From: Treponema sp.
GTDB taxonomy: Bacteria > Spirochaetota > Spirochaetia > Treponematales > Breznakiellaceae
Reading direction: 5' to 3'
Length of the DNA stretch: 64,000 nucleotides
Assembly: GCA_009777335.1 (NCBI GenBank)
Contig: WRMC01000004.1
Location: 1 to 64,000, forward strand
Numbering within the stretch: position 1 is the stretch's first letter; every line of letters starts with the position of its first letter. The translations under genes were made by a program, and so were the position numbers. The notes under the pieces were generated by a model, which had not been told where the DNA came from, made no database searches, and worked only from the letters and a program-made list of their open reading frames with translations. This document shows, in pieces, positions 36-21,082 of the stretch.

Positions 36-917
36 TTAACGGGGGGGGGAAAGGCGGCAGCCGGGGGGCATGGCCGGGGGGGGGGGGACCGAGCCCGGGA
101 TGGCCTCCAGGCGCATCCCCGCGGGGGTATCAAGCCGGGGGATGGAGATCATAAGGGCCTCCGTGTAGGGGTGGGACAGGGTCTGGGGGGTAAAGATGGT
201 CCGCTTGGGGGCCATTTCTACCACCTCTCCGCAGTACATCACCGCCACATCATCGGCCATCTGGTTAATCACCGCCAGGTCGTGGGTTATAAAGAGGATG
301 GAGGTCCCCTTTTCCCGTTTAAGGTCGTTCATAAGCCGGAGAATCTGGGCCTGAATGGTCACGTCCAGGGCGGTGGTGGGTTCATCGGCGATGAGGATGC
401 TGGGCTTACAGGCCAGGGCCATGGCGATCATCACCCTCTGCCGCATGCCCCCGGAAAGCTGAAAGGGATACTGCTTGGCCACGGTCTGGGGGTTGGGGAT
501 CTGCACATCCCGTAAAATATCTATCACCTTGTTCCGGGCCTCTTTCTTATCGAGCCCCTCGTGGATCATGTAGCTTTCGCCAATTTGCTTTTCGACAGTA
601 AAGACGGGATTCAAACTGGTCATGGGTTCCTGGAAAATAAAGGAGATCTCCTTTCCCCGGATTTTATAGAGATCTTCCAGGGGGGACTTAACCAGATCTT
701 CCCCCTTAAAGAGGATCTCCCCCGAATGGATGTAGCCGTTGCCGTCCAGGATGCGGAGGATGCTCATGGCAGAGACGGACTTTCCGCTTCCGCTTTCTCC
801 CACGATGCCCAGGGTGCGGCCCCCGTCGAGGGTATATGAAACCCCCTCAACTCCCTTTACGATGCCCCGCTTGGTGGAAAAATAGGTATGGACTTCTTTT
901 AGTTCCAGTAAAGCCAT
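36..917 (-). CDS. Opp/Dpp-type ABC transporter ATP-binding protein (OppD-like), C-terminus truncated or frameshifted
   Basis: This is a cytoplasmic ATPase that powers uptake by the adjacent permeases. Walker A (GESGSGKS) lies near residues 39-46, the signature LSGGMRQR near 153-160 and Walker B (ILIADEPT) near 173-180. Near the end comes the oligopeptide-family tail PPGC, where the second OppD in this window (19280-20275) continues CPFHPRCQRASPEC and about 20 further residues. Here the frame instead stops about six residues after PPGC, inside a run of nine G on the plus strand (41-49). A change of one base in that run opens a frame to the window edge. The product is therefore either a truncated protein, a sequencing error, or a slippage-sensitive gene. 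It lies 6 bases after the permease gene in the same operon. The ATPase assignment is firm; the 3' end is not. Confidence 0.9.
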
Positions 918-923
918 GGCTGC

Positions 924-2654
924 CTACCTGTCGTTAGATTTTGGGTCAATGGCATCCCGCAGGGCATCTCCTATCATGCTGATGCTGATGACCGCCATGC
1001 TTAAGGTGAGGGCCGGGAAGACCCAGCGCCACCAGTAAAACCGGATGTCCGTGGACCGCAGACCCTGGAGCATGTTCCCCCAGGAGGCCCGGGGCTCGGT
1101 GATGCCCAGCCCTAAAAATGAGAGGGATGCCTCGAAGAGCATGATGGTGGCCAGGCTCAGGAGGATCTGCACCAGGATGATGGGCAAGATGTTGGGGATG
1201 ATGTGCTTAAAGATGATCACCCCCTCCCGGACCCCCATGGCCTTGGCGGCGGTGACAAAATCTTTTTCCCGTTCCACCAGTATGTTGGCCCGGGTTAGGC
1301 GGGCCAGCCCCGACCAGTTGATAAGCCCCCAGATAAGCATGATGAGGACCAGCCGCTGCTGCTGGGGCAGGCTGTGGCCTATGGAGTAGGAGAGGATGAT
1401 GGCCAAAGGCAGGAAGGGGATGGCGTTGACGATCTCCGCAAAGCGCATGAGGACCAGGTCTATCTTCCCTAAAAAGTAGCCCGAGATGCCCCCTATGATG
1501 ATTCCTATGAAACTGGCGATAAGGACCCCTATGGCCCCTATGGTGAGGGAGATTTTCCCCCCCTCTAAAACCCGGCGAAAGACGTTGCGGCCGTAATGGT
1601 CGGTCCCCATGAGGTAGCCCGAGAAGCCCCAGGGGTGGACCCCTCCCTGGGCATCGATGGCGTAGTTCTGATAGTAGCCCGAGTGGACCGACTCTATACC
1701 GCTGAGGTCCTGGGGCCGGGTTTGGCGGTAATTGTTTCTTCCCCAGGAGACCACGGTGCCGTCATCCAGGGAGGCAGCAAAATGCCAGCTCCCCGCCGAG
1801 ATGGACCTTACCCGGCCCTGGATCTCCGGGGGGATCAGGTGCACCCCATGTTCCTGGTTGCCCCAGCTGTGGACCGTGCCGTCCTCCAGCAGGGCCAGGG
1901 CATCCCGGTTCGTGGCCGCCACCTGTACCACCCGGCCCTGGATATGCTGGGGCATGGCGGTGGCGATGAGGATGTCCCTATTGGTCAGGGCGTAGAGGTT
2001 CTTCTCGTAGGAGATCACAAAGGCTGTGGCATCCATCAAAAGGACCTTTTCAACCTGTCCTTCGAAGAGTTCGGGCCGGACATCCACGAAGCCCCGGTTC
2101 CCCCAGACATGGATCTCCCCCTCCGCATCGACGGCAATGGAAATTTGGTTCCCCGCTTCGATATAGACTATGTGGGAGAGCCGCACCTCCGGGGGGATGG
2201 GGGAAAGACGGTGCCGGTCATTCCCCCAGGTAAAGACATTCCCCTGATCGTTTAAGACCAGGATATGGTCCAGCCCCACCGAAAGCATGGTAATGTTTCC
2301 CATGTTTTGGGGAATGTTGAGGAGCCTCTCGTTCACCGGGTTCCCCCAGATGTAGACATTATTGTTCCTGTCTACTCCGGCCCCGAAGGAATTGCCTACG
2401 TCAATGATTTTTGCATTGTTCCGTAATTCCCTGGGGACCCGCATCAGGTTTAACCCCGGCCGGATATGCTGCTGGGATGAATCGGCAAAGTTGACATCCA
2501 GGGGGAAAAATATGGGGAGGATAAAGCAGAGGGAAAAAATAAGAAAGAAGAGGGTGACCCCGGTGATGGCGGTTTTCTTTTCGAGAAAGTTTTTAAGGGC
2601 CGTGCGGCCGGGGCTTTGGATCAGTTCTTCTTCAATGATGGAATTTTCAGACAT
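924..2654 (-). CDS. OppC/DppC-type ABC permease with an inserted RCC1-like beta-propeller
   Basis: An inner-membrane permease subunit of an oligopeptide-type importer, 576 residues where the family normally has about 270-310. TM1 is at residues 29-51. The usual OppC landmark after the first loop (MGTDHYGRNVFRR) appears only at 349-361, followed by four or five membrane segments and the EAA loop (AAKAMGVREG, 469-478) that contacts the ATPase. Between them sits an extra domain (residues about 80-345) with WG-containing repeats every 40 residues. The start was set at the ATG at 2652-2654, because AGAGG lies just before it and the upstream frame would overlap oppB. Spirochaete-type promoters or terminators were not seen inside the operon. 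The permease fold is certain; the role of the propeller is unknown. Confidence 0.95.
   Translation of the reverse strand: MSENSIIEEELIQSPGRTALKNFLEKKTAITGVTLFFLIFSLCFILPIFFPLDVNFADSSQQHIRPGLNLMRVPRELRNNAKIIDVGNSFGAGVDRNNNVYIWGNPVNERLLNIPQNMGNITMLSVGLDHILVLNDQGNVFTWGNDRHRLSPIPPEVRLSHIVYIEAGNQISIAVDAEGEIHVWGNRGFVDVRPELFEGQVEKVLLMDATAFVISYEKNLYALTNRDILIATAMPQHIQGRVVQVAATNRDALALLEDGTVHSWGNQEHGVHLIPPEIQGRVRSISAGSWHFAASLDDGTVVSWGRNNYRQTRPQDLSGIESVHSGYYQNYAIDAQGGVHPWGFSGYLMGTDHYGRNVFRRVLEGGKISLTIGAIGVLIASFIGIIIGGISGYFLGKIDLVLMRFAEIVNAIPFLPLAIILSYSIGHSLPQQQRLVLIMLIWGLINWSGLARLTRANILVEREKDFVTAAKAMGVREGVIIFKHIIPNILPIILVQILLSLATIMLFEASLSFLGLGITEPRASWGNMLQGLRSTDIRFYWWRWVFPALTLSMAVISISMIGDALRDAIDPKSNDR
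1620..2417 (-). other. RCC1-like seven-repeat beta-propeller domain inside the permease
   Basis: In the 576-residue protein, strands ending in WG or a variant occur at residues 101-105 (YIWGN), 141-145 (FTWGN), 182-186 (HVWGN), 221-225 (YALTN, degenerate), 262-266 (HSWGN), 302-306 (VSWGR) and 340-343 (HPWG). The spacing is close to 40 residues and there are seven units, as expected for a closed seven-bladed propeller. Repeats of this length resemble the short bacterial RCC1 type rather than the longer eukaryotic blades. By the usual OppC topology (N-terminus inside) the loop after TM1 is extracytoplasmic, so the domain should face the substrate-binding protein. That placement is inference from topology. 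Confidence 0.9.
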
Positions 2655-2664
2655 GTCCAAACCT

Positions 2665-3648
2665 CTAATTAAATTTTGCCCGGGGGTCCACCAGGGTATA
2701 GGCAATATCCATTAAAAGATTTGCCAAAAGCGCCAAGACCACATAGAACAGGATCATGGTAAAACTCACGTTGAAGTCCCGGTTGTGCAGGGCGTCTAAT
2801 GTGATCCTCCCCATGCCGGGCCAGGAAAAAACATTCTCGACTATCATGGAGCCCCCAAAGAGGCTGATGGTCCAGGCTATGGTTATATTGACCAGGGGGA
2901 TCATGGAGTTGCGGAAGGCATGGGAGTAGATGACCACCTTTTCCCTTACCCCCTTGGCCCGGGCGGTCCGGACATAATCCTGCCTGAGGGCTTCGATCAT
3001 GCCGCTGCGGACATAGCGGGTGATGGAGGCCAGGCTGGCGAAGGTGAGGGTCAGGACCGGCAGGACCATGAACCTGGCCTGGTCCATAAGGCGGGCAAAG
3101 CCGGTACCCTGGAAGCCCACGGTCCCGGCCCCCGATATGGGGAGTATGTTTAAGAAGATGGCGAAAATGAGGATGAAGAGGATCCCCCAGATGAAGATGG
3201 GGATGCTGACCCCCACGATGGTGCCAACCTGTACGACATTATCCAGGGTGCTGCCCTTTCTTACGGCGGTAATAATTCCTAAGGGTATGGTTATGATAAA
3301 GACAAAGAACATGACAAAAATATTTAATTTGATCGTATTGGCCATGGCGGGCCTGACCACATCGATCACGTCCATGTGGTAGTAGATGGACCGGCCAAAG
3401 TTAAAGGTCAGGACATTGCGCATCCAGATGGCATATTGAACCGGGTAGGCCCTGTCCAGGGCCAGTTCGGCCCGGGCCCTTTCTATGGCCGCATTCCACT
3501 CCTCGGGGGTCATGCCCGGGAGGATAGCCCCCACCTGCATCTGGGCCCGGTCCCCAGGGACCTGCTGAAATACGATGAAGACAATAATGGAAATAATAAA
3601 GAACACAAAAATGAGGAAGACGAACCTTTTTAGCAGGTGCTGCAGCAT
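2665..3648 (-). CDS. OppB/DppB-type ABC transporter permease
   Basis: The first permease subunit of the importer, 327 residues, which is the normal family length. A TM segment occupies residues 7-28 (FVFLIFVFFIISIIVFIVF). An extracytoplasmic loop ending in FNFGRSIYY follows, then five further segments. The cytoplasmic EAA motif (TARAKGVREKVVIYSHAFRN) is near 231-250, and the family tail LVDPRAKF closes the protein. It is followed after 10 bases by the OppC-type gene; the TAG stop at 2665-2667 overlaps the ribosome-binding site of that gene, suggesting coupled translation. A 92-base gap with a strong stem-loop separates it from the binding-protein gene upstream. Confidence 0.95.
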   Translation of the reverse strand: MLQHLLKRFVFLIFVFFIISIIVFIVFQQVPGDRAQMQVGAILPGMTPEEWNAAIERARAELALDRAYPVQYAIWMRNVLTFNFGRSIYYHMDVIDVVRPAMANTIKLNIFVMFFVFIITIPLGIITAVRKGSTLDNVVQVGTIVGVSIPIFIWGILFILIFAIFLNILPISGAGTVGFQGTGFARLMDQARFMVLPVLTLTFASLASITRYVRSGMIEALRQDYVRTARAKGVREKVVIYSHAFRNSMIPLVNITIAWTISLFGGSMIVENVFSWPGMGRITLDALHNRDFNVSFTMILFYVVLALLANLLMDIAYTLVDPRAKFN

Positions 3649-3740: not shown

Positions 3741-5612
3741 TTACCGGAGGTTGGCCCAGAGGATCGAATGGGACCAGGTGCGGAAGGGAGTGGGTGAGTA
3801 GTTCATCAAATTATCCGGATGGAAATCAAAGAACTCATCCGAGTAAAGGGGAAGGTCCGGTAAGACCCGGTTGTAATGAACCTGAAGGTCCAGCCAGAGC
3901 CTGTCCCAGGAGGCGGTGTCCCCGGGTTCGACGGACCTCATGGACACCCCTATGCCATGAAGGACCGGGTCCCTGATGAAGTTGGCATTGAAGGTTCCCA
4001 GATAGGCGTCATCGGGGTTAAAGGTGTCCCAGGGAGCTACCGCCGGGGTAGACCAGGTGGTGGCCAGGTTGAACATGTGGAAGTCGGTGACCCGGGCGCT
4101 CATTTCCCTTTGGAGGGTGGGGAAGTCCCCGGAGGTCTGGTTGATGATGATCCCTACCCTGGCGGCTTCGGGGACTATCATGGCGGAAATCAGGTCTGAT
4201 ACCCGGTTGTCGGTGGTGGAGAACCATTCGATGATGAGGGGCTCCAGGGCTCCCTGGGCGTTCCGGCGGTGCCGGGGCAGGCCCGAACCTTCCACATAGG
4301 CGCCGCCCTGGGCGTTGAGGGTCCAGCCGTCTCCCACCAGGAGTTCGGTGGCCCGTGCAAGGTTGTAATGGTACTGGATGATCCGGTTATGCAGGGCGGT
4401 CCGGTTCTGCTGGTATTCCCGCATGGCCATGCCGTACCAGCCGTGGCCCACCACGCCGTAACCAAAGGTGAACTGCCGGGCGAATTCTTCCCGGTCCGCT
4501 GCAAAGGCCACGGCCTGCCGTACCGCTTCGCTGGCGGTGGGGCCGTGATCATGGCGGAACCGGATAAAGCCGTACCCGGCCCTGGGGTAGGTCGCATAGG
4601 AACGGCCGCTATTGGGCTGTTCGATGATGTCCAGGATGGGGTCCACGTTCTGGCCCCCTATACCGCCCAGGAGGTTTACTTCACCGGTGGCGAACATGTC
4701 CACCTGTACGGGCTGGGCAGTGTGCCTGAGGGTGATCCGTTCTATCTGGGGCTTGTGGCCGTCATAGAGGCCCTTAAAGCGGGGGTTAAGTTCCAGAACG
4801 GCGGTGTTCCCCACCGAATCGTAGTTCACCAGCATATAGGGGCCGGGGAAGACCGTGGGATTAAAGCGCTGTCCAGTCTGGGGATCATCCACCGAGCGGC
4901 GGATTAGATCCAGGGTAAAGGCATCGCTGAGCCTGGCGCCCTGGGGGCTGTCGATGACCGTAACGCCGGGCATCCAGACATGGATGGGGTAGGGCCGCAT
5001 ATCCAGGTAGAGGAGCTCAAAATAATAGGGAAAGTTGGGGTTTCCCTGGGCATCGGTGGCGGCTATGGTGATGCTAAAGGTGAACTCATCGATGAGCCTT
5101 AGACCTTCAAAGTGCCGGGGGGCCGTGTCTCCTGCTTCCCGGGTTGCCGAATAGGCCGCATGGCCCAGGATCCGGTTCCCGCTGACCACAGAAGCTCCAA
5201 TTTCCCTCCATTCGTGGGAGTTCCTCATGAGGATCTGCCCAATAAAGCTGGAGGCATTGATGGGTTGGCCGTCAGAAAAGACCAGATCCCGGTGCAGTTC
5301 TATCCGGTAGGTCCGGGAACCGTCGCTGTTATTGGTGGAGCTATGATTCGCCACTACCTGGGGGTTGATGATCCATTCTTCGTTACGGGTAAAAACCACA
5401 GGGCCTGCATGATCCCTGGTAAGACGCATGATGTCCATGTTGACCGCATTGTTACCGGCGGGCCAATCGGCATGGAACCAGTTCACCATCTGGGTGGTGC
5501 TTCCAAAGTCGATTTGCTGGGGACCCTGGGGTCCCGCTTCCTGGGTGGTGCGCTGGCAGCCAATTATTGATAAAAGGGCACAGGCAAGAGCTGCGTAAAA
5601 TACTTTTTTCAT
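3741..5612 (-). CDS. Family 5 extracellular solute-binding lipoprotein (OppA/DppA-like)
   Basis: The ligand receptor of the importer, 623 residues. The start is the ATG at 5610-5612, chosen because AAGGAG lies 9 bases upstream. The lipoprotein signal peptide MKKVFYAALACALLSIIGC gives a lipidated Cys19. The body has SBP_bac_5 features: an N-terminal lobe with a long beta-rich region, a GYGFIRFRHD-like central stretch near residue 345, a helix of the type EAVRQAVAFAADREEFARQF, and a C-terminal tail with LPLYSDEFFDFHP. The family binds peptides, but many relatives bind oligosaccharides. The divergent neighbours here encode a phospho-glycosidase and a sugar kinase, so a sugar ligand is possible. 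Substrate is unproven. Confidence 0.93.
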   Translation of the reverse strand: MKKVFYAALACALLSIIGCQRTTQEAGPQGPQQIDFGSTTQMVNWFHADWPAGNNAVNMDIMRLTRDHAGPVVFTRNEEWIINPQVVANHSSTNNSDGSRTYRIELHRDLVFSDGQPINASSFIGQILMRNSHEWREIGASVVSGNRILGHAAYSATREAGDTAPRHFEGLRLIDEFTFSITIAATDAQGNPNFPYYFELLYLDMRPYPIHVWMPGVTVIDSPQGARLSDAFTLDLIRRSVDDPQTGQRFNPTVFPGPYMLVNYDSVGNTAVLELNPRFKGLYDGHKPQIERITLRHTAQPVQVDMFATGEVNLLGGIGGQNVDPILDIIEQPNSGRSYATYPRAGYGFIRFRHDHGPTASEAVRQAVAFAADREEFARQFTFGYGVVGHGWYGMAMREYQQNRTALHNRIIQYHYNLARATELLVGDGWTLNAQGGAYVEGSGLPRHRRNAQGALEPLIIEWFSTTDNRVSDLISAMIVPEAARVGIIINQTSGDFPTLQREMSARVTDFHMFNLATTWSTPAVAPWDTFNPDDAYLGTFNANFIRDPVLHGIGVSMRSVEPGDTASWDRLWLDLQVHYNRVLPDLPLYSDEFFDFHPDNLMNYSPTPFRTWSHSILWANLR

Positions 5613-5651
5613 TCTATCTATCTCCTTGTCCAGTATCATAATACATCAGCC

Positions 5652-5680: not shown

Positions 5681-5709
5681 TAACTCGTGGAACCCCACAG
5701 GAGGTGAAG

Positions 5710-6963
5710 ATGAGGGAGCTAAAGGCGGCTATTATAGGAGCCGGGAGTACCTATACTCCGGAACTGATCGAAGGAATCATAGAAAGGCAGGGGAGCCTTA
5801 ACTTCCAAACCTTCTATTTGTTGGATATTAATCAGGAGAAATTAAGCGTCACCGGGGCCCTGGCGGAGCGGATGCTCAAGGCCAATGGCTTTAAGGGCCG
5901 CCTGGTCCTTACGGATTCCCTGGATGAGGCGGTAGCGGGGGCGGACTATATCTTTGCCCAGATCCGGGTGGGTGGAATGGAGGCCCGGATCCGGGATGAG
6001 AAGATCCCGAAAAAGTACGGCCTTCTGGGTCAGGAGACCACCGGCATAGGGGGCTTTATGAACGCCCTGAGGACCGTCCCGGTGATGCTCCACATAGCCC
6101 GGCGGATCGAAGAACTGAGCTCCCAGGGTTGGCTTATAAACTTTTCAAACCCCTCGGGGATAGTGGCCGATGCCCTCTTAAACCACAGCGGGGTAAAGAT
6201 GGTGGGGCTCTGCAATAATTTTATCAACATGAAGGCCCGGATAGCCAAGACCCTGGGCAGCGAAGACTTTGACTACGACTATGTGGGCCTTAACCACCTG
6301 GCCTGGATCACCTCCATCCGTTCCGGCGGCAGGGAGCTTCTAGATGAATTTTGGGACATGTCGGGGACCAACAACGAGGAGCTCTACGCGGCCATCCGGG
6401 CCATCCCTGTTTCCTACCTCAACTATTTTTACTTCCGGGATGAACAGCTTAAAAAGAACCTGGCCGCCGAAAAGACCCGGGGCGAAACCATCGTGGGCCT
6501 TGAGGCCTCTTTAATGGAAAAATACAGGGACCCAAATCTTAGCAGCAAGCCCGAAGAGCTTTCCCAGCGGGGGGGCTCCCTCTATTCGACTGCGGCGGTC
6601 TCGGTGGCCGATGCCATAGAGAACGACAAGAACGAGCACCATGTGGTGAATGTAAAAAACGGGAAATCCCTTTCCTTCCTCGAGGAAGATGATGTGGTGG
6701 AGGTAAAGTGCCTGGTGAACCGCCAGGGGGCCGCCCCCGTGCCGGTGCCGGGGCCCATACACCCCAGTATTAAGGGGCTCATCCAGGGCGTGAAGGCCTA
6801 CGAAAAGCTGGCCGCCGCCGCAGCCATCTCCGGCAGCCGGGCCGAGGCCCTGGCGGCCCTGATGGTTCACCCCCTCATAGGAGATTATCCCAAGGCCAGG
6901 GCCGCCCTGGAGGATATGCTGGAAGCCAACCGGGACTACCTGTCCCCCAACTTTTTTTCCTAA
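5710..6963 (+). CDS. Glycoside hydrolase family 4 protein (6-phospho-beta-glucosidase-like)
   Basis: A cytoplasmic NAD- and Mn-dependent glycosidase, 417 residues. The Rossmann start IIGAGSTYTPELIEG (residues 8-22) is typical of the 6-phospho-beta-glucosidase branch. LLGQETTGIGGFMNALRTVP (105-124) follows. The metal-ligand Cys168 is in GLCNN and His196 is in GLNHL. The start is the ATG at 5710, with AGGAGG at 5699-5704; a GTG two codons upstream sits inside that Shine-Dalgarno sequence. The gene is followed after 11 bases by a BadF-type sugar kinase. Together they suggest breakdown of a phosphorylated beta-glucoside or amino-sugar disaccharide, perhaps imported by the divergent transporter. 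Exact substrate cannot be read from sequence. Confidence 0.92.
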   Translation: MRELKAAIIGAGSTYTPELIEGIIERQGSLNFQTFYLLDINQEKLSVTGALAERMLKANGFKGRLVLTDSLDEAVAGADYIFAQIRVGGMEARIRDEKIPKKYGLLGQETTGIGGFMNALRTVPVMLHIARRIEELSSQGWLINFSNPSGIVADALLNHSGVKMVGLCNNFINMKARIAKTLGSEDFDYDYVGLNHLAWITSIRSGGRELLDEFWDMSGTNNEELYAAIRAIPVSYLNYFYFRDEQLKKNLAAEKTRGETIVGLEASLMEKYRDPNLSSKPEELSQRGGSLYSTAAVSVADAIENDKNEHHVVNVKNGKSLSFLEEDDVVEVKCLVNRQGAAPVPVPGPIHPSIKGLIQGVKAYEKLAAAAAISGSRAEALAALMVHPLIGDYPKARAALEDMLEANRDYLSPNFFS

Positions 6964-6974
6964 AGGAGAGTCCC

Positions 6975-7979
6975 ATGGCAGAATATATCATCGGGGTGGA
7001 CGTGGGGGGGACCAAGAGCCACCTGGCCATCTTTACGAAGGAAGGGAAATTCGTAGGCCTGGGGGAATGGCGGGGCCTTAACCACGAGGGCATGCCTGGC
7101 TCCTATGGAGAATTGCAGGAACGGTTTGGGGACTTCTTAAAAGATGTCCTCCCCCGTTATGGGCTCACCATGGAAGAGGTCTCCTATTCGGTCCTGGGCA
7201 TGGCGGGGGCGGACACCATAGAACAGCATGAGCAAATTTCCCGGGTCCTCACAAACCTGGGCTTTGCCAGGCACACCCTGGTAAATGATGCCTTCTTGGG
7301 GGTCCCTGCGGGTTCCCAGACCGGCGTAGGGATCTGTGCCATCAACGGCACGGGCTGCACTTCCGCGGGCATAGACGCCCAGGGGAGCCGGCGCCAGCTT
7401 GGCGGAGTGGGCTATGTGTCCAACGACATGGGAGGGGGGAGCACCATGGCCCGCTTCCTGGTTTCGGCAGCCTACTCGGATCTTTTTCGGAAGGCCCCGG
7501 CCACCTCCATGACCCCCAAGCTCCTTGAGTACCTGGGCATAACCAATAAGCATGATTTTGTGGAACGGGTCTACGAGCTCAATGCGGCCCGGACCTTTGA
7601 CCGCACCGCCTGTGTAAAAATAGTCTTCGAGGCCGCCGATTCGGGCGATCAGGTGGCCCGGAAATTCCTGCGGGAGGTGGCCCACAATTATGCGGGGGGA
7701 ATCTCTACCCTGGTGGACGAGATGGACTTTCCCAAAGATGAGGCCCTCCACATAGTCCTGGCCGGTTCAGTCTTTGTGAGGGGGAACAACCCCCACCTCA
7801 TCGGCCCCCTTAAGGAGTATCTGGAGGGCTTTAACCCGGGCCAAAATTTTGAGTATGTGCTTCTTGATGTGCCCCCCGTGGCGGGGGCCTCCGTATGGGC
7901 CTTGAACATCCTCAACGGCAATACCCTTCACTACGAGGGGGTCTGCCAGGCCCTGCGGACCATAGAAGAGCCCTCTTAG
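6975..7979 (+). CDS. BadF/BadG/BcrA/BcrD-family kinase, probably N-acetylglucosamine kinase-like
   Basis: A cytoplasmic ASKHA-fold sugar kinase, 334 residues. The ATP phosphate-1 loop is GVDVGGTKSHLAIF (7-20). The substrate-side segment LVNDAFLG (about 99-106) and the adenosine/phosphate-2 segment ICAINGTGCTSAGID (about 116-130) follow. GYVSNDMGGGSTMARF resembles the eukaryotic-type N-acetylglucosamine kinases in this family, although glucosamine and MurNAc kinases share the fold. AAAGGAGAG precedes the ATG. It is co-transcribed with the GH4 gene, so it probably phosphorylates the monosaccharide released. Its TAG stop interlocks with the TAA stop of the convergent Nudix gene. Confidence 0.85.
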   Translation: MAEYIIGVDVGGTKSHLAIFTKEGKFVGLGEWRGLNHEGMPGSYGELQERFGDFLKDVLPRYGLTMEEVSYSVLGMAGADTIEQHEQISRVLTNLGFARHTLVNDAFLGVPAGSQTGVGICAINGTGCTSAGIDAQGSRRQLGGVGYVSNDMGGGSTMARFLVSAAYSDLFRKAPATSMTPKLLEYLGITNKHDFVERVYELNAARTFDRTACVKIVFEAADSGDQVARKFLREVAHNYAGGISTLVDEMDFPKDEALHIVLAGSVFVRGNNPHLIGPLKEYLEGFNPGQNFEYVLLDVPPVAGASVWALNILNGNTLHYEGVCQALRTIEEPS

Positions 7980-20278: not shown

Positions 20279-21082
20279 CTATAGATCCCGGGCCCGGAGG
20301 CCCTCGCCCAGGTAATGAAAGGCCAGGACGGTCATGATGATCATCAGCCCCGGGGCCAGGGCGCACCAGGGTGCATTGAAGAGGAAGCCCTGGGACTCGG
20401 AGAGCATGCGGCCCCAGCTGGGGGTGGGGGGCTGGATGCCCAGACCCAGGTAGCTCATGGTAGATTCGGCCAGGATGGCATTGGAGAGTCCCAGGACCGA
20501 GGCGGACAGGAGAGGGGGGACCAGGTTGGGGAAAATATGAATAAAGATGATCCGGGGATAGGAAACCCCCGCAATCCTGGCGGCCAGGACAAAATCCCGG
20601 GTCTTGTACTGGAGCATGCCGTTCCGCATGATCCGGGTAAAGCTGGGGATAAAGAGAATCAAGAGGGCGATAATGAGGGTCCCGTGGCTGTTCCCCAAAA
20701 GGGCCACCATGACCAGGGCCAGGAGGATCCCCGGAAAGGAGCTTAGGGTATCGGCCCCCCGCATGATGAGCTCGTCCCAGACCCCCCCGCTGAAGCCTGA
20801 AAAAAGTCCCAGGGCGCTGCCTATGGCGGCGCTGCCGGTGACGGTGATAAGGGCCACCAAAAGGGTATACCGGGCCCCCACCATGATCCGCGAGAGGATG
20901 TCCCGGCCAAAATTATCGGTCCCCATGGGGTGGCTCAGGCTGGGGGAGTCGAATCGCTTTTCGCTGTCCATGGCATTGTAGTCGTGGGGAAGAAAAAAGA
21001 GGCCCGTTAAGGTGATGCCTCCTATGATGAGGGCCAGAAGAGCTCCGGCCCTAAGCTCAAAATTGATGATCCGTCCCCGCAT
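20279..21082 (-). CDS. OppC/DppC-type ABC transporter permease
   Basis: An inner-membrane permease, 267 residues from the ATG at 21080-21082, one base after the oppB stop. TM1 is about residues 10-28 (LRAGALLALIIGGITLTGLFF). The landmark HPMGTDNFGRDILSR comes only about 20 residues later (48-62), so the first loop has the ordinary short length. The contrast with the propeller-bearing OppC at 924-2654 is clear. The EAA-type loop (ARIAGVSYPRIIFIHIFPN) and the terminal LGEGLRARDL are typical of the family. An upstream 31-codon extension overlaps oppB and was rejected. Confidence 0.94.
   Translation of the reverse strand: MRGRIINFELRAGALLALIIGGITLTGLFFLPHDYNAMDSEKRFDSPSLSHPMGTDNFGRDILSRIMVGARYTLLVALITVTGSAAIGSALGLFSGFSGGVWDELIMRGADTLSSFPGILLALVMVALLGNSHGTLIIALLILFIPSFTRIMRNGMLQYKTRDFVLAARIAGVSYPRIIFIHIFPNLVPPLLSASVLGLSNAILAESTMSYLGLGIQPPTPSWGRMLSESQGFLFNAPWCALAPGLMIIMTVLAFHYLGEGLRARDL

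Follow-up and report, generated by a model that had tools for sequence, protein, structure and literature searches.

Importers of the Opp/Dpp type rank among the commonest transporters of bacteria and are regarded as structurally uniform. The first 64,000 nucleotides of contig WRMC01000004.1 from a Treponema sp. (this whole stretch is referred to as the window) contain an OppC-type permease gene with RCC1-like repeats inside its reading frame. This raises the question of whether the gene encodes a genuine composite protein, which fold the repeats adopt, and what such a domain would do in an importer. The gene and its parts are as follows:

924 to 2654, minus strand: OppC-type permease with RCC1-like propeller, 576 aa; intact open reading frame with OppC_N, five RCC1_2 stretches and BPD_transp_1, and with full-length relatives.
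2469 to 2615, minus strand: OppC_N region with TM1, residues 14-62 (Pfam OppC_N at its expected place with 23.2 bits, slightly below the cut-off of 23.9, and E 6e-5; hydrophobic residues 27-57).
2415 to 2504, minus strand: N-terminal linker, residues 51-80, with Q61, N/H63, P66, P74 and L77 conserved (45 distinct sequences).
1626 to 2414, minus strand: predicted seven-bladed RCC1-like propeller, residues 81-343 (AlphaFold2; BLIP-II is the best fold match).
Blades of the propeller in the AlphaFold2 model: residues 81-104, 121-144, 162-185, 201-223, 242-265, 282-305 and 320-343.
1608 to 1625, minus strand: C-terminal linker of six residues (344-349) that connects the final blade strand with the GTD motif (linker length in relatives).
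927 to 1607, minus strand: GTDHYGR motif and transmembrane core, residues 350-576 (BPD_transp_1; homology to OppC of 8z21 and DppC of 8z1v).

The reading frame runs from an ATG at 2654 to a last codon at 927 and a stop at 924-926, with no internal stops. Pfam placed BPD_transp_1 at residues 384-572 (98.4 bits, cut-off 26.4), as in an OppC permease, and OppC in the PDB was matched with an E-value of 6.8e-46. The RCC1_2 model scored 105.6 bits over its five stretches with a cut-off of 22, and the repeats are therefore far beyond chance. The first-pass annotation had described an in-frame insertion in the TM1-TM2 loop that leaves both permease halves intact and is missing from the sister OppC of the window, and both descriptions were confirmed. 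The propeller separates TM1 from the GTDxxGR motif, with the junctions RPGLN and YLMGTD, while in the window's other OppC (20279-21082) and in the nearest plain OppC the sequences SPSLS and APSGQ run directly into HPMGTD and NLMGAD, respectively. The W residues of the WG motifs are found at 103, 143, 184, 223 (degenerate), 264, 304 and 342. The regular period of about 40 residues (38-41) and the degenerate fourth repeat that were previously noted thus hold, whereas the residue numbers given for the repeats were each about two too low.

The window genome is a draft assembly of 28 contigs that is 77% complete, and an assembly chimera had been named beforehand as a finding that would speak against the insertion. 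A scan of genome contigs identified 11 full-length relatives of the propeller OppC with 34-85% identity, from Treponema, Spirochaetales, Clostridia, Lachnospiraceae, Tissierellales and Anaerococcus. A chimera was excluded since independent genomes carry the same full-length open reading frame. Profile searches for the propeller OppC (threshold E ≤ 1e-110) found it in 5 of 347 genomes of Spirochaetia, in 63 of 249 genomes of Tissierellales (the order of Anaerococcus genome G394), in 11 of 299 genomes of one sampled Lachnospiraceae-type family (that of genome G391), and in 12 of 348 genomes taken from the phylum to which G391 belongs. It is rare in the window genome's own family; besides the window genome itself only one of 59 relatives, of the same genus (G003), carries it. 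Taking all searches together, the full-length architecture was found in gut and commensal bacteria, in about 90 genomes at the species level. This number of independent genomes with the same open reading frame rules out a chimera or a pseudogene, an explanation to which we assign practically no probability. Among plasmids, the nearest match to the propeller permease was a plain OppC.

A seven-bladed fold had been claimed from the repeat pattern, and structure prediction bears this out. An AlphaFold2 model built from a 12-sequence alignment has exactly seven blades of three strands each within residues 81-343, with pLDDT mostly between 75 and 94 in the propeller, whereas the transmembrane part was modelled poorly (pLDDT 40-60). 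The best Foldseek match of the predicted propeller was BLIP-II (E 6.8e-20, TM 0.85 of target), and VIA-align gave Z 30.6 and an rmsd of 2.0 A over 256 residues with 25% identity. The insert is thus a seven-bladed propeller as far as the model goes. Between the last strand of the propeller and the GTD motif, the linker has a length of exactly six in 44 of the 45 distinct relatives, and also of six in the remaining one (WGLKSHVFGTD) when read by eye, so the propeller can hardly swing free. Conservation calculated face by face was 0.51 for the AB loops and 0.50 for the BC loops, i.e., neither face is clearly more conserved. Between the two Treponema propeller genes synonymous sites are saturated (pS 0.78), and raw pS and pN were used instead of dN/dS; as pN within the propeller is 0.135, the propeller is under purifying selection.

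The genes next to the permease are those of an Opp/Dpp operon:

2665 to 3648, minus strand: partner permease OppB (BPD_transp_1 and BPD_transp_1_N; partner OppBs cluster in a tree).
3741 to 5639, minus strand: substrate-binding lipoprotein (SBP), 632 aa, likely start at 5612 (Pfam SBP_bac_5).
36 to 917, minus strand: OppD ATPase, incomplete at its 3' end, which is broken or truncated where the contig starts (84.5% identity over 291 aa to OppD of locus L034).

The contig of the window (C4) starts at window base 1, inside OppD. The OppD frame diverges from its relatives at 36-60, shortly before the stop and near the contig start, which is probably an assembly error. The OppF gene of the window genome (L116) was found on a separate contig, at the start of C27 (G000:C27:170-1732). 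Because C4 begins inside OppD and OppF opens C27, these contigs probably lie next to each other in the genome, separated by a gap. Of the 31 loci that were examined, nearly all have the gene order SBP-OppB-OppC(propeller)-OppD-OppF. The exceptions are L079, which is cut by a contig end, and L043, which lacks the ATPases. The latter (L043:4770-10372) is a second propeller set, OppB-OppC-SBP, in Anaerococcus sp. 9403502 and may share the ATPases of the L044 operon. A genome of Tissierellales carries two complete propeller-type operons in tandem (G880, L093:4515-19714). At another locus of the window genome, a different permease and an ATPase are joined in one reading frame (OppC-OppD fusion, 709 aa; G000:C11, L002:1156-3285), and several relatives show similar long open frames.

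The operons with a propeller OppC also encode an altered OppF. The spacing between the Walker A motif and the Q-loop was 175-241 residues in all 31 cognate OppF proteins, including the one on C27, compared to 43-46 residues in all 19 OppF proteins from plain operons of the same genomes. The cognate OppF therefore carries a second insertion of about 130-200 aa between these motifs. OppD has the normal spacing of about 48 in both classes. OppF-profile and OppC-profile searches of the same two genome sets found both insertions together in 11 and 62 genomes, respectively. Only three genomes were discordant, two with OppF at a contig end (G451 and G916) and one on a 3.5-kb contig ending before OppF (G893). 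The OppC propeller and the OppF insert thus strictly co-occur. AlphaFold2 predicted four long helices and one shorter helix for the OppF insert (about residues 106-275) with pLDDT 77-94, the ATPase core being poorly modelled. A Pfam search of the insert returned no named domain, and the matches of a fold search were limited to ATPases of the OppD/PhnK type and weak, BAR-like helical ones, none of them specific. The binding protein is enlarged as well. The segment from the DG..INA/DG..ITA motif to the GPY motif comprises 127-248 residues in all cognate SBPs (143 in that of the window) compared to 84-105 residues in 16 of 17 plain SBPs; the remaining one, from operon L096, has 121.

Propeller-type importers have a single origin and form a clade spanning two phyla. 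In a tree of the OppC core, with the propeller columns excluded, the propeller OppCs formed one clade (SH-aLRT 99), and the partner OppBs also grouped together apart from one long-branch plain row (own_L002). A four-gene tree of OppB, OppD and the cores of OppC and OppF (49 operons and 1163 columns, with the inserts taken out) supported the propeller clade with SH-aLRT 100 on a long stem (0.72) and placed the plain operon L096 as its sister (support 99). From this topology the insertions in OppC and OppF map to the same stem branch. The spirochaete members were nested within Bacillota, which suggests transfer into spirochaetes.

The importers share the SBP-B-C-D-F layout, the BPD_transp_1 core and the C-terminal oligo_HPY region of OppF with its cysteines with known Opp/Dpp systems (E. 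coli DppABCDF, 8z1v/8z1w, and OppBCDF, 8z21), but differ from them by the OppC propeller of about 265 residues, the helical OppF insert of about 130-200 residues and the larger SBP. Three members scored 264, 297 and 306 bits with the NCBIfam Opp4C equivalog, all below its cut-off of 350. BLIP-II (beta-lactamase inhibitory protein II; 1jtd, 3qhy, 3qi0) is likewise a seven-bladed extracytoplasmic bacterial RCC1-like propeller, but it is a free secreted single-domain inhibitor of class A beta-lactamases, whereas the propeller described here is built into a permease. Another parallel is MalF-P2 of the maltose importer, since both are large extra extracytoplasmic domains in a loop of one permease subunit. 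MalF-P2, however, has about 180 residues, belongs to MalF of a sugar importer and is not known to be a propeller; a sequence link between the two was not found. MalF-P2 (residues 91-271) contacts MalE (PMC3150292), and according to the title of a work that PMC3328499 cites, it tells the ATPase whether substrate is available. In E. coli DppABCDF, the TM1-TM2 loop of DppB is a scoop motif that enters the cleft of DppA (PMC12136057). The propeller occupies the matching loop of the sister subunit, although the scoop is a short two-helix motif in DppB and the domain in OppC is a folded propeller. By homology, and in line with the topology of the solved homologue DppC, this loop would be extracytoplasmic, as had been assumed in the first-pass annotation.

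We favour, with middling confidence, that the propeller would serve as a rigid docking and gating platform for the enlarged SBP and that the OppF insert would tune the same half-transporter. A large extra domain in such a position has its best precedent in MalF-P2. As MalF-P2 does for MalE and the DppB scoop for DppA, the propeller would dock the SBP and help to orient it or to seal it over the translocation path. In E. coli, DppB contacts DppD and DppC contacts DppF (PMC12136057); with the same pairing both insertions would sit on one half-transporter, and the helical insert at its cytosolic end would probably tune or anchor that half. The enlarged SBP segment, the fixed six-residue linker, the purifying selection and the paired insertions all count in favour of a docking platform. 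The poor transmembrane model counts against it, as it leaves the orientation of the propeller over the pore unfixed, and so does the even conservation of the two faces. The enlarged SBP segment is also partly present in the propeller-less L096, and therefore need not be a propeller contact.

The propeller could alternatively bind a partner other than the SBP, for example the cell wall, a protein on the surface or of the host, or peptides on their way to the SBP, and thereby localise the importer or concentrate its substrate. RCC1-like propellers are general protein-binding scaffolds, BLIP-II as the closest fold is a dedicated protein binder, and between the two Treponema genes the propeller is less conserved than the core (80.6 compared to 89.6% identity). 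Still, a C-terminal linker so short and constant in length, together with an OppF insert that strictly accompanies the propeller, argues for a role inside the transport cycle, and a clade that covers didermal spirochaetes as well as Gram-positives meets envelopes with few ligands in common, so we consider such a partner rather unlikely. That the importer is regulated, or acts as a transceptor, is similarly a tentative proposal. The propeller would then sense whether the SBP is occupied or a signal from outside, and the OppF insert would relay this to the ATPase or to a cytosolic partner. It would suit such an arrangement that the two insertions, one predicted outside and one inside the cell, arose on a single stem branch and occur apart only at contig ends; at the loci examined, however, a conserved regulator gene was not recognised beside the operon, and the OppF insert has neither a recognisable Pfam regulatory domain nor a specific fold match. 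We therefore regard it as doubtful that propeller and helical module form one trans-membrane control unit that gates ATP hydrolysis or signals to a cytosolic partner. The degenerate fourth blade and the variable insert lengths might finally indicate that the propeller merely stabilises OppC or serves as a spacer, with the OppF insert as an unrelated neutral expansion. Complete blades, an invariant linker length and purifying selection have nevertheless been retained across a clade of two phyla, which makes a passive role very improbable.

The locus had been put forward as an undescribed system, and in agreement with this neither an RCC1-propeller permease nor the OppF insertion was found described in the open-access literature searched; domain databases may list the architecture. 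The propeller-type importer most likely represents an undescribed subtype of Opp/Dpp-type ABC importers, probably for peptides. This clade, whose members include Anaerococcus, gut Clostridia and termite-gut treponemes, gained what appears to be a folded, receptor-like domain outside together with a helical module inside. It offers a natural system for probing how SBP docking is coupled to the ATPase across the membrane, and the paired insertions provide a clean synapomorphy by which the new importer subtype can be annotated; none of the NCBIfam models used names this subtype specifically.

The substrate is likely a peptide, judged from the best solved relative of the SBP, which is the peptide-binding OppA 9p48. 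A gene for an M3-family oligopeptidase was found near 6 of 31 propeller operons (two of the six being near-copies) compared to none of 20 plain loci, which gives modest support to a peptide substrate. The peptidase family names rest on Pfam, and the first neighbour count took only proteins similar to references. Next to the operon in the window (5704-7979), a GH4 glycosidase and a BadF/GlcNAc-type kinase are encoded by divergent genes. Sugar import was considered as a reading for the whole system and rejected, since these genes were not recognised beside any other member.

A different OppC of a spirochaete (G388:C29, L101:4590-6176) was found to carry, in the same TM1-TM2 loop, another insert, of about 230 residues. 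It is charged and without WG repeats, and Pfam names only OppC_N and BPD_transp_1 in this protein. This loop of OppC may accept inserted domains more generally.
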